Below are positions 23,794 through 28,007 of a stretch of DNA of 36,574 bases, one piece after another. Source of the stretch: Deltaproteobacteria bacterium (GTDB lineage Bacteria > Desulfobacterota > Desulfobulbia > Desulfobulbales > SURF-16); the NCBI GenBank assembly GCA_016219175.1, contig JACRCD010000017.1, positions 100,446 through 137,019 of the forward strand. The letters are read 5' to 3'. A program made the translations under genes and the position numbers. The notes under the pieces were generated by a model, which saw only the letters and a list, made by a program, of their open reading frames with translations, ran no database searches and was not told the origin of the DNA. Position 1 is the stretch's first letter; every line of letters starts with the position of its first letter.

Positions 23794-23870
23794 GGGCCTA
23801 TAGCTCAGTTGGCTAGAGCCACCGGCTCATAACCGGTCTGTCCCTGGTTCGAGTCCAGGTAGGCCCACCA
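23794..23870 (+). tRNA. tRNA with CAU anticodon (Met elongator or Ile2)
   Basis: 77 nt with encoded CCA. Acceptor GGGCCTA/TAGGCCC, D-arm GCTC/GAGC, anticodon stem ACCGG/CCGGT around the loop CTCATAA, T-arm CCTGG/CCAGG with loop TTCGAGT. The anticodon CAU could be methionine or, after lysidine modification by TilS, isoleucine; the lack of an initiator-type C1-A72 mismatch excludes fMet. A run of nine T follows at 23871-23879 and may terminate it. Confidence 0.93.
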
Positions 23871-23983: not shown

Positions 23984-24019
23984 AAAAAGGTGTAACCTGC
24001 CTCGGGTTACACCTTTTTT
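23984..24019 (+). terminator. Strong intrinsic terminator/hairpin
   Basis: AAAAAGGTGTAACC and GGTTACACCTTTTTT pair perfectly around a short loop, ending in a T-run. The A-run and T-run make it usable in both directions. It lies between the tRNA and the nif3-like gene. Confidence 0.85.
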
Positions 24020-24067: not shown

Positions 24068-24892
24068 ATGGCATCACCAATCAAGCTGAAAGAAATTCTT
24101 GCATATCTGGGGCGCTTTGCCCCTTGGGAGCTGGCAGAGACCTGGGACAATGTGGGTCTCATGATCGGCAACCCCGACCAGGAAGCGACGGGGGTGCTGG
24201 TTGCCCTGGATCCCACCCTGCCTCTCATAGAAGAAGCGATTCACAAAAAAGCAAACATCATCCTCACCCATCATCCTCTCATTTTCCACCCGATCAAATC
24301 AATCAACACCGCTACTCCATCCGGCCAATTTCTAAAAAAAGCACTGGCCTACGATATTGCCGTCATCAGCTGTCATACCAATCTCGACCTGATCGATGAC
24401 GGAGTCAGCGAGGCCCTGGCCTGCGCCCTGGATCTGCTTAACACGCACCCCCTGGCCCCCTCCGCCTCGGGACAGCCCGGGATAGGGTTCGGCAAGGTGG
24501 GAAATTTGCCGTTGCCGATGACGGGCGCTTTTTTCAAGGATTTCGTGGCCCAGCGCCTCGGCCTGAAGGTCCTGACTATTGCCGGTTCGCTCCCCGCATC
24601 AATAAAAACCATTGCAGTATGCGGAGGAAGCGGCTCCGACCTGGCCGAGGCCGCGCTGAAGTCCGGCGCCGATGTGTACATCACGGCCGAGATCAAACAC
24701 GCCGTGGCCCGCTGGGCGGAAGAGAACGGCCTGTGCATCATTGATGGGGGTCATTTCGCCACGGAAAACCTCATCATCCCCAGGCTTGTTGCAAAAATTT
24801 CGGCTTTTCTTGCCCAGACTGACACGGCCGTGCCTGTTACAGCCTCGCCCAGCCAAAACAGTCCATTGCGCTACTATATTTATGAAAATTGA
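24068..24892 (+). CDS. Nif3-like dinuclear metal centre protein
   Basis: 274-residue NIF3/YbgI (DUF34) protein, expected to form a toroidal hexamer with a two-metal site. Metal ligands in the usual places: H68/H69 in LTHHPLIF, D106 in CHTNLDL, and the C-terminal DGGHFATE with His and Glu. Blocks ETWDNVGLMIG and GSGSDLAEAALKSGADVYITAE are also typical. Some databases call it GTP cyclohydrolase I type 2, but the activity is not established. It is followed by the zinc-ribbon gene and rnhA-rnpB, a neighbourhood seen in other bacteria. It has the short form of the family, without the inserted PII-like domain. Confidence 0.92.
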   Translation: MASPIKLKEILAYLGRFAPWELAETWDNVGLMIGNPDQEATGVLVALDPTLPLIEEAIHKKANIILTHHPLIFHPIKSINTATPSGQFLKKALAYDIAVISCHTNLDLIDDGVSEALACALDLLNTHPLAPSASGQPGIGFGKVGNLPLPMTGAFFKDFVAQRLGLKVLTIAGSLPASIKTIAVCGGSGSDLAEAALKSGADVYITAEIKHAVARWAEENGLCIIDGGHFATENLIIPRLVAKISAFLAQTDTAVPVTASPSQNSPLRYYIYEN

Positions 24893-24976: not shown

Positions 24977-25696
24977 TTGAAAGAAGACCTCTCGCGACTT
25001 ATTGTACTGCAGGAAATTGACCTTCAGATAAAAAGGCTGGATGACGAGCTGGCCACCGGACAGGCTGACATCCAAAAACGGCAGGACGTCATTGACGAAA
25101 GAAAAGACAAGATCGCCAAGTATGCGGCAACGATCGAAAGCTCGGATACGCGAAGGATAGAACTTGAAGCGGAGATTGAAGCTGAGCTGGTGCATATCAA
25201 GGACCGGCAATCCAAGCTGATGAATGTCCAGACAAACAGGGAATATCAATCCCTGCTCAAGGAAATCGAGGAAAGCAAGAAGAACAATAAACGCAGGGAA
25301 GAAGAAATTGTTGGCCTGATGGAACAAAATGAGTCCCTGCAGAAAAAGGTCACCGAACAGGGCAACGTCTGCAAAAGTGAAGAGCAGCTTCTCGCCGAGG
25401 CTGGTGAAAAGGTTTCCGCCCTGATTCAGGAAACCCAGGACAAAAAACTCAAATTTGAAAAAACCCGCGAACAGCAGGCCAAAAAAATACCCGACCACCT
25501 TCGCCGGCGTTACGACCAGCTCCTGGCCAAACGCAACGGATTGGCCATCACCGGCGTTACCAAGGGGGTCTGCCAGGGTTGTTTCATGAACATCCCGCCA
25601 CAGCAGTTCAATGAGGTGTTGAAAGGAGAACAGCTGCTCTCCTGCCCGACCTGCCAGCGCATGATGTTCCATCAACCTGAAGCGAAAGAGGAATAA
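24977..25696 (+). CDS. CT398/DUF164-type coiled-coil protein with C4 zinc ribbon
   Basis: 239 residues: a long antiparallel coiled coil (about 5-175) and a C-terminal C4 zinc ribbon, with CQGC (about 202-205) and CPTC (about 226-229). This is the family of Helicobacter HP0958 and Chlamydia CT398, which have been linked to sigma-54 and flagellar gene control by protein or RNA binding; here that is only homology. The start is TTG at 24977, supported by GGGGAG about eight bases upstream. The stop lies 3 bp before rnhA, so translation is coupled. Confidence 0.9.
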   Translation: MKEDLSRLIVLQEIDLQIKRLDDELATGQADIQKRQDVIDERKDKIAKYAATIESSDTRRIELEAEIEAELVHIKDRQSKLMNVQTNREYQSLLKEIEESKKNNKRREEEIVGLMEQNESLQKKVTEQGNVCKSEEQLLAEAGEKVSALIQETQDKKLKFEKTREQQAKKIPDHLRRRYDQLLAKRNGLAITGVTKGVCQGCFMNIPPQQFNEVLKGEQLLSCPTCQRMMFHQPEAKEE

Positions 25697-25699
25697 AGC

Positions 25700-26125
25700 A
25701 TGGCAATCGCCTCACCTTTCATGCTTTATACCGACGGAGCTTCCCGGGGTAATCCGGGGGAGGCCGGAGCCGGCGTGGTTATTCTTGACGACCGGCGGCA
25801 GGAAATTGCCACCCGGGCCGAGTATCTCGGCCAGTGCACCAACAATGTCGCCGAATATCAGGCCCTGATACTGGGTCTGTCGGAAGCGGCCCAGCTGGGA
25901 TGCAAAAATCTTAGGATTTTCCTTGACTCCCAGCTCATCGTCCGTCAGATTCAAGGGTCGTACAAAGTTAAAAACAGCGCTCTTCTGCCTCTCTTTGCCA
26001 AGGCAAAGGAACTGCTGGCCGGCTTTGAACATTACGGGATCGCGCACATCCCCAGGGAAGAAAACAAACGTGCGGATCAATTGGCAAACCAGGGAATAAA
26101 TGACCGTTTTGGAGTGGGCGCATGA
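25700..26125 (+). CDS. Ribonuclease HI-type protein
   Basis: 141-residue RNase H1-fold nuclease that would cut the RNA of RNA-DNA hybrids. The four catalytic acids are visible: D12 (YTDGASRGNPG), E52 (NNVAEYQAL), D76 (LDSQLIVRQ) and D126 (RADQLAN). The basic protrusion of E. coli RNase HI is short, so it belongs to the compact subgroup seen in many bacteria and archaea. The last 15 bases of the gene (26111-26125) are also the first 15 of the RNase P RNA, so one DNA strand serves both products. Confidence 0.93.
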   Translation: MAIASPFMLYTDGASRGNPGEAGAGVVILDDRRQEIATRAEYLGQCTNNVAEYQALILGLSEAAQLGCKNLRIFLDSQLIVRQIQGSYKVKNSALLPLFAKAKELLAGFEHYGIAHIPREENKRADQLANQGINDRFGVGA

Positions 26126-26466
26126 TCGCACCGCCGCCAACCAGGCGTTGGTGAGGAAAGTCCGAACTCCGCAGGGCAGGATGGTTCGTAACTCGAACCG
26201 GGGGTGACCCCGGGAAAGTGCCACAGAAAAGATACCGCCCCGGTTTTCCGGGGTAAGGGTGAAACGGCGAGGTAAGAGCTCACCGCTTTCATGGCGACAT
26301 GGAAGGCACGGCAAACCCCATCCGGAGCAAGACCAAATAGGAAAGCATTTGAGGGCGGCCCGTCCAAAGCTTTCGGGTAGGTTGCAAGAGGTGCCGGGTG
26401 ATCGGCATCCCAGAGAAATGATCATGGCCCCGCAAGGGGTACAGAATTCGGCTTATAGCCCACTCC
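26111..26466 (+). ncRNA. rnpB: RNase P RNA (bacterial type A)
   Basis: Catalytic RNA that matures tRNA 5' ends. The P1 helix pairs GGAGTGGGC (26111-26119) with GCCCACTCC (26458-26466). The universally conserved GAGGAAAGTCCGAAC lies at 26153-26167 and the matching ACAGAATTCGGCTTA at 26441-26455. Other recognisable parts are GTGCCACAGAAAAGATACC, GGGTGAAACGGCGAGGTAAG and the segment AGAGAAATGATCATGG. I see no good -10 element just upstream, so it may be read from the upstream genes and processed. Confidence 0.97.
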
Positions 26467-26481
26467 ATTTTTACATCAGCC

Positions 26482-26756: not shown

Positions 26757-28007
26757 ATGGCGTCAGGAGTTCTGAACCTAGAAACGCAAACCTTGAACAC
26801 TCCACGGACAGCCGCCATCATCCCGGCCGGCGGAATCGGCAAACGCATGGGAACAGGCAGCCCCAAGCAGTTCTGCCTGCTGGCCGGCATCCCCCTGCTG
26901 GTCCATACCGTGCGCGCCTTTGCGCAGGTAGACGCCATTACGGCCATCATCATTGCCGCGCCCGCCGTTCACCTGCAACAGACCAGGCAACTGGCGGACA
27001 CATACAAACTGCAAAAAGTCACGGTGGTTGCCGGCGGCAAACTGCGGCAGGATTCAGTAAAAGCCGGTCTGGCCCATGTCCCGCCCGGATGTGAATTCGT
27101 GGCCGTGCATGACGGGGCCCGCCCCCTGATCACCCCGGCGCTCATCCGCGCCTGCCTGGCCGAGGCCGAAAAAAGCGGGGCCGCCATGGCTGCCGTTGCG
27201 GTCAAGGACACCATTAAGGAGGTCAAGGCAGGTTTCATCAGGCGGACCATCGACAGGGAAACCCTCTGGCAGGCCCAGACCCCCCAGGTGGTTCGCACCG
27301 AGACTCTGAAAAAAGCCTTTGCCCAGGCGGAAAAGTTATCATTCATCGGCACGGACGAGGCATCCTTTCTCGAACTCATCAACGAGCCCATGGCTGTGGT
27401 GCAAGGCTCGGAACAAAATATCAAGATCACCCGCCCGGAGGATCTCATCATTGCCGAGGCCATTCTCATGCAAAAAGCACAAAACGTTCTTCCCGGTCAA
27501 GCCCCTGCCCTTCGGGTCGGCCATGGTTATGACGCCCACAGGCTTGCTGCCGGACGCCTCCTTGTGCTGGGCGGGGTCGTCATCCCCCACCCCACCGGGC
27601 TTTTAGGCCATTCCGATGCCGATGTGCTCACCCATGCCCTGTGCGACGCCATCCTCGGGGCGCTCGGCGCGGGAGATATCGGCCACCATTTCCCGGACCA
27701 TGACCCGGCCTACAAGGATATCGACAGCCTGAAACTGCTGGCCCAGGTGATGGCAGCGGCCGACAGGGAAGGCTACGCCCTGGTCAATGCCGACATCACG
27801 GTTATTGCCCAGGAGCCGAAACTTGCCCCCCATTTCCCCGCCATGCGGGAAAAACTCGCAACAGTCTGCCGGACAGCCGAAAGCGCCATCAACCTGAAAG
27901 GAACCACCACGGAAAAGATGGGTTTTACCGGCCGGCAGGAAGGCATCGCCGCCCATGCCGTGGTATTGCTGCATCAGAAGGTAAAGGATATACTTACAGA
28001 ACCGTAA
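26757..28007 (+). CDS. ispDF: Bifunctional IspD/IspF (MEP pathway)
   Basis: 416-residue fusion of two non-consecutive MEP-pathway enzymes of isoprenoid precursor synthesis. IspD (about 18-238), the CTP-dependent cytidylyltransferase, shows AAIIPAGGIGKRMG, SPKQF, AVHDGARPL and the GTDEA region. IspF (about 252-412), the cyclodiphosphate synthase, shows GHGYDAHRL with metal ligands D259 and H261, GHSDADVLTHAL with H293, and the late TTTEKMGFTGR. Fusions of this order occur in several alpha-, epsilon- and deltaproteobacterial lineages. No Shine-Dalgarno precedes ATG 26757, and the first ~16 codons lie in repeat-like sequence, so the true start may be a few codons later. The 3' end overlaps the convergent lpxR-like gene by 34 bp. 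Confidence 0.95.
   Translation: MASGVLNLETQTLNTPRTAAIIPAGGIGKRMGTGSPKQFCLLAGIPLLVHTVRAFAQVDAITAIIIAAPAVHLQQTRQLADTYKLQKVTVVAGGKLRQDSVKAGLAHVPPGCEFVAVHDGARPLITPALIRACLAEAEKSGAAMAAVAVKDTIKEVKAGFIRRTIDRETLWQAQTPQVVRTETLKKAFAQAEKLSFIGTDEASFLELINEPMAVVQGSEQNIKITRPEDLIIAEAILMQKAQNVLPGQAPALRVGHGYDAHRLAAGRLLVLGGVVIPHPTGLLGHSDADVLTHALCDAILGALGAGDIGHHFPDHDPAYKDIDSLKLLAQVMAAADREGYALVNADITVIAQEPKLAPHFPAMREKLATVCRTAESAINLKGTTTEKMGFTGRQEGIAAHAVVLLHQKVKDILTEP

Follow-up and report, generated by a model that had tools for sequence, protein, structure and literature searches.

An rnhA reading frame that ends inside the RNase P RNA gene in one genus of Desulfobulbales

The rnhA-rnpB locus and the geometry of the overlap

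We analysed a window of 36,574 nucleotides, by which we mean the whole stretch taken from the contig. Between tRNA-Met and ispDF, it carries nif3, a zinc-ribbon gene, rnhA and rnpB, with the following features:

23794-23870: tRNA-Met
24068-24892, + strand: nif3 (DUF34), first gene of a presumed message (Pfam PF01784, 2.2e-76)
24977-25696, + strand: zinc-ribbon gene (DUF164/CT398), which we take to be cdsZ and call so here (Pfam PF02591 and PF24481)
25700-26125, + strand: rnhA, RNase HI of the RVT_3 type, 141 aa (ORF; Pfam PF13456, 9e-25; PF00075, 4.8e-15)
26106-26109, + strand: GTTT immediately 5' of P1, a putative endonuclease cutting region (TT at -2 and -1 in 4/4 genus genomes)
26110-26471, + strand: rnpB, class A RNase P RNA (RF00010, full length)
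26110-26119, + strand: 5' strand of the P1 helix, inside rnhA codons (Rfam alignment, fold, pair changes in relatives)
26121-26127, + strand: 5' strand of the P2 helix, containing the rnhA stop TGA at 26123-26125 (Rfam alignment, fold)
26420-26426, + strand: 3' strand of the P2 helix (Rfam alignment, fold)
26458-26467, + strand: 3' strand of the P1 helix (Rfam alignment, fold, pair changes in relatives)
26757-28007: ispDF

The rnpB match is the only RF00010 match in the genome. It scores 322.6 bits, against a gathering score of 100, and spans model positions 1-367 of 367. A full-length covariance match above the gathering score, with both P1 and P2 formed, identifies the product as a class A RNase P RNA. 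The upstream protein was assigned to RNase HI of the RVT_3 type by its Pfam match and four acidic residues (D12, E52, D76 and D126), which we take to be the catalytic ones and which are invariant in all 14 rows of the alignment. The Pfam domain match stops at residue 131 of 141.

Comparison of the ORF with the Rfam match shows that the rnhA frame enters rnpB by 16 nt (26110-26125). An earlier note on this DNA had described an overlap of 15 nt, with the last four codons and the stop forming one strand of P1. The overlap is real and slightly longer, and the P1 assignment holds for three of the codons. The 3' end of rnhA reads GGA GTG GGC GCA TGA, where P1 takes up GGA GTG GGC together with the final base of the preceding codon. 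The remaining GCA TGA falls beyond P1, and the stop UGA sits within P2. Both helices were still formed in the predicted fold of 26040-26480, a segment that takes in the 3' end of rnhA. By eye, we also spotted an ATG at 26122-26124 that overlaps the rnhA stop (ATGA) and opens a frame of 10 codons inside rnpB. This frame is probably a meaningless product of the conserved P2 letters.

A separate observation concerns the region between tRNA-Met and nif3, where a hairpin, AAAAGGTGTAACC..GGTTACACCTTTTT, lies at 23985-24018. It was found at the same place in 14 of the 16 sequences examined; of the other two, one (L243) is cut by a contig end and one (L246) was missed by the tRNA pattern, and the genome of the latter does have the hairpin. 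The stem shows paired changes among relatives. There is one copy in its own genome; of 145 order genomes, 11 contain the exact pattern, and nine of these belong to the family. The hairpin resembles a conserved terminator, an attenuator or the end of a small RNA. A promoter-like site between the tRNA and the hairpin reached a shuffle p <=0.05 in only 5 of 14 loci. We do not claim that the cluster is transcribed from the tRNA-Met promoter, because a strong hairpin with a T-run intervenes.

Conservation of the overlap and of the shared letters

The earlier note had asked for conservation of the overlap in relatives. Within the genus it is conserved: six genomes were examined, and the four with an rnpB match all have the identical 16-nt overlap, so it is not a sequencing accident. 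The two genomes lacking an rnpB match are fragmented assemblies of 410 and 500 contigs. Outside the genus, the family has 14 further genomes with rnpB, and none of them shows the overlap. In seven of these, rnhA ends 7, 37, 38, 38, 75, 177 and 207 nt before rnpB. In the other seven, the zinc-ribbon gene lies upstream of rnpB with gaps of 6-210 nt, and no rnhA was found between the two. Clear separation of the two genes in relatives had been named beforehand as evidence against the note's proposal, and that is the arrangement in the seven family genomes with gaps of 7-207 nt. This removes any general need for the overlap and leaves the idea of RNA processing untouched.

To place the overlap phylogenetically, we used a tree of the zinc-ribbon protein that took in 80 of the 82 family and order loci. 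The four overlap genomes form one clade (support 100/96), whose neighbour is a genome with a zinc-ribbon gene ending 6 nt before rnpB. Considering this single clade and the absence of the overlap from the 14 other family genomes, it most likely arose once in the genus, and recently. Loss of the spacer and of the original rnhA stop would be the simplest history.

We next considered which product sets the shared letters. The RnhA tail FGVGA/LGVGA is present in the four genus rows of the 14-row alignment and in none of the 10 others, which end at the point where the tail starts or a few residues beyond. Conversely, GGAGTGGGCGCATGATCGC opens rnpB in three other loci beyond the reach of any rnhA frame (L005, L006 and L014), so that the same 19 letters are non-coding there. 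Across the genus, the first P1 pair is T-A, A-T or G.T, and the codon is correspondingly TTT, TTA or TTG. As the pair is kept while the codon changes, and as the letters are shared with non-coding relatives, it is the RNA structure that appears to be preserved, with the protein following. The constraint thus looks one-way, the RNase P RNA dictating the RnhA tail, and the mutual constraint put forward in the earlier note is not borne out.

Codon invariance within the genus adds little to this. The last five rnhA codons are identical in 4/4 genomes, whereas 89 of the 129 earlier codons vary, including 12 of the 15 directly before the overlap. Although these five form the longest invariant run, we do not read selection on the tail from invariance alone: 40 of 86 comparable rnhA codons are likewise unchanged in the genus, so the four invariant tail codons together are only mildly unusual.

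The position of the stop codon raises the possibility of regulation. A ribosome that terminates at the UGA within P2 would keep P1 and P2 open. Any one transcript would then function as rnhA message or as RNase P RNA but not as both, and any cut, stop-less rnhA messages would go to tmRNA. The 5' strand of P1 is indeed wholly translated, the genome contains a tmRNA, and the arrangement is kept in all four genus genomes with rnpB. Yet it is limited to one genus of the family (0/14 other family genomes with rnpB), and the RNA alone explains the conservation. We therefore consider such regulation improbable. The same low probability applies to its consequence, namely that each nif3-zinc ribbon-rnhA-rnpB molecule would trade output of RNase P RNA against output of RnhA.

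The wider gene cluster across the phylum

To determine how widespread this gene order is, we surveyed 149 loci with an assigned rnpB start: 18 from the family, 64 from the order and 67 from the phylum. The sample is not random: it began with the best-scoring matches, and 80 further loci were picked by hand for a spread of families. Four of the 73 RF00010 loci (L036, L052, L060 and L062) lie near contig ends and were dropped, having no assigned start. The nearest upstream gene was rnhA in 51 loci, cdsZ in 82 and nif3 in one, and none was found in 15. Here, upstream denotes the nearest same-strand member of the searched gene families in the 1.5-1.7 kb retrieved for each locus (shorter in a few cut loci). 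In this loose sense, with gaps of up to 1350 nt and only the searched families covered, rnpB lies downstream of nif3, the zinc-ribbon gene or rnhA in 134 of 149 loci. One gap value (L081) is wrong, because the alignment ran through a stop. The arrangement extends to other phyla: we examined 80 RNase H relatives from several phyla, and in 55 of them a usable rnpB follows on the same strand; the other 25, lacking a usable rnpB start on that strand, were dropped. As a side observation, this phylum-wide neighbourhood hints at a possible action of the zinc-ribbon protein on RNase P RNA.

The overlap in the genus is a small local oddity inside this far more widely conserved gene cluster. Overlaps with rnpB occur in 11 of the 149 loci and are 2 to 26 nt long. 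They comprise the four of the genus, five others with rnhA (-26, -7, -3, -3 and -2) and two with cdsZ (both -3). Judged from these sequences, overlap of an upstream gene with rnpB is a recurrent kind of arrangement. In another lineage with an overlap (L067 and L073), P1 is lengthened by 6-8 predicted pairs, which join rnhA codons to the 3' flank.

The recurrence of overlaps, twice with the zinc-ribbon gene in place of rnhA, argues for a neutral by-product of gene packing without effect on either product. We regard this as the probable status of the overlap, and no decisive point speaks against it. Neutral packing opposes only the regulatory role considered above. It is compatible both with processing of the RNA from a longer message and with an rnpB promoter of its own.

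Parts of this neighbourhood have been described before. The available text of one study (PMC3372290) places NIF3 upstream of DUF164 (flgZ), and its Figure 3 legend also names rnhA and tRNA-Met, so that the neighbours are the same as here. In that text, RNase P RNA is mentioned once, downstream of the Borrelia burgdorferi flgZ homolog, as against the 134 of 149 loci of another phylum reported here. Among the open-licence literature matches listed, no title or beginning of an abstract concerned an rnhA-rnpB overlap, an absence that means little.

Promoters and processing of the RNase P RNA

How rnpB is transcribed bears directly on the meaning of the overlap. We scored sigma-70 sites with approximate E. 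coli-like weights. On this scale, P1-proximal scores average -1.7 in the four genus genomes (mean shuffle p 0.77), and none of the four has a proximal sigma-70 promoter, defined as a -35/-10 pair for a start at P1 with a score >=7. The best site within 120 nt of rnpB in the window scores only 1.6 (shuffle p 0.98). Together with the variation in 12 of 15 preceding codons, this upholds the earlier statement that no good promoter stands directly ahead. A candidate -35 element, TTGGCA at 26081-26086, was rejected, as it is not followed by a fitting -10 and the three relatives in the genus have CTGGCC there.

Nevertheless, rnpB may have its own promoter inside rnhA, of non-consensus type or farther upstream, in which case the two genes would have separate transcripts and most rnhA messages would stay uncut. 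Candidate sites exist. One, at -63, reaches 6.6-8.3 in the three other members of the genus; another, TTGACT-17-CAGATT, is present at -187/-164 in 4/4 genus genomes. The latter has a poor -10 and lies on codons of a conserved LDSQ..QI protein motif; we rejected it as a conserved promoter and kept it only as part of this alternative. Moreover, transcription starting as far up as -187/-164 would still need a cut at P1.

Loci elsewhere lend the alternative more weight. With one locus (L217, which has 106 nt upstream) left out, the promoter and flank tests covered 148 loci. A score >=7 near P1 was reached by 9 of 14 loci without cluster genes upstream versus 8 of 42 with gaps below 30 nt, by 33% of 39 loci with gaps of 30-79 nt and by 38% of 53 with larger gaps. 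Among the tight loci, 29% had a shuffle p <=0.1, compared to 10% expected. Own rnpB promoters are therefore not rare in the cluster. Most other overlapping loci also score >=10 within 120 nt (L048, L050, L072, L196 and L218, but not L067 and L073). The clearest case is a Desulfobacca-like lineage with a 7-nt overlap, in which TTGACC-17-TATAAT at -26 is written within the last RnhA codons (AIDQ..DYNL; L050 and L045). The same motif precedes rnpB in kin with no rnhA there (L057, and L044 with TAAAAT in place of TATAAT). L050 and L151 may be one genome, as their letters are identical in the compared stretch. Beside this lineage, four overlapping loci have sites of 10.5-12.5 within 120 nt. An overlapping gene can thus hold a promoter, while the genus, L067 and L073 do not appear to have one. 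We consider a separate rnpB promoter the main alternative, though on balance an unlikely one.

We then looked for features that would accompany processing. Between 24525 and rnpB, a simple consensus scan of the + strand returned nothing resembling a terminator; the scan is insensitive and missed the hairpin at 23985-24018. The genome encodes two RNase E/G proteins. The RNase J model TIGR00649 had no match in the genome; the model is loose and matches 13 of 14 control genomes, including E. coli. Directly before P1, where all four genus genomes have TT, the AT content is 53%, modest for an RNase E site.

Flanks of rnpB that could pair as a precursor stalk were also assessed. They pair beyond shuffles (p <=0.01, 100 shuffles) in 19 of 148 loci, where about three are expected; within 30 nt, L192 forms 24 pairs and L194 forms 23. 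In these two and five more loci (L187, L182, L191, L009 and L221), inverted repeats bracket rnpB and lengthen P1, resembling the stalk of an rRNA precursor. A few loci with paired flanks have the 5' arm in coding DNA of the upstream gene (L073 and L199). Such flanks would be weakly consistent with precursors that start upstream and are then cut. We rejected a stalk of this kind for the locus studied here: paired flanks were found in none of the four genus loci (p 0.77-0.86), and strong pairing (<= -12 kcal/mol) reaches 43% in the 14 loci outside the cluster, at least matching the 26-29% seen inside it. A cut in the genus would have to fall in single-stranded RNA before P1.

On the whole, we lean slightly towards processing of the RNase P RNA out of the nif3-zinc ribbon-rnhA message, following a loss of the rnhA stop and spacer that left the protein with a tail of RNase P RNA sequence. 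In the ancestor of the genus, the rnhA stop and the spacer separating it from rnpB would have been lost; the frame now runs through the 5' strand of P1 and ends at a UGA supplied by the conserved P2. The FGVGA/LGVGA tail would then be RNase P RNA read as protein, tolerated past the RNase H domain. The RNase P RNA would be transcribed as the 3' part of the message, and an endonuclease of the RNase E/G type may make its 5' end by cutting in the U-rich stretch before P1. Cutting at P1 would indeed strip the rnhA stop from the upstream piece, as the earlier note had anticipated, and the linkage of RnhA and RNase P levels proposed there might follow.

The presumed embedding sets this gene apart from E. 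coli rnpB, which also yields a class A RNA with P1 at the 5' end but has its own strong promoter and is not embedded in a message.

A closer parallel is found in Staphylococcus aureus. In the part of PMC3937233 available, a longer transcript of gpsB (SA1279) reaches into rnpB and is trimmed to P1. An own rnpB start with a weak -35 is described there as also likely, the trimming is ascribed to RNase J, and an ORF inside rnpB, SA1278, may not be translated. As in that account, rnpB here stands behind a protein gene. In the present locus, no close promoter was found between the genes by E. coli-like weights. According to the same text, gpsB ends before rnpB, whereas here the rnhA frame enters P1 and P2. 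Further differences from the trimming by RNase J given there are that the present genome has no match to the RNase J model and that processing here is a prediction from sequence.

The locus illustrates how the stop codon of a protein gene can come from a helix within an essential ribozyme, whose sequence then sets the tail of the protein. More broadly, the pattern across the phylum, and also in some other phyla, suggests that RNase P RNA may often be matured by cutting from a protein message.
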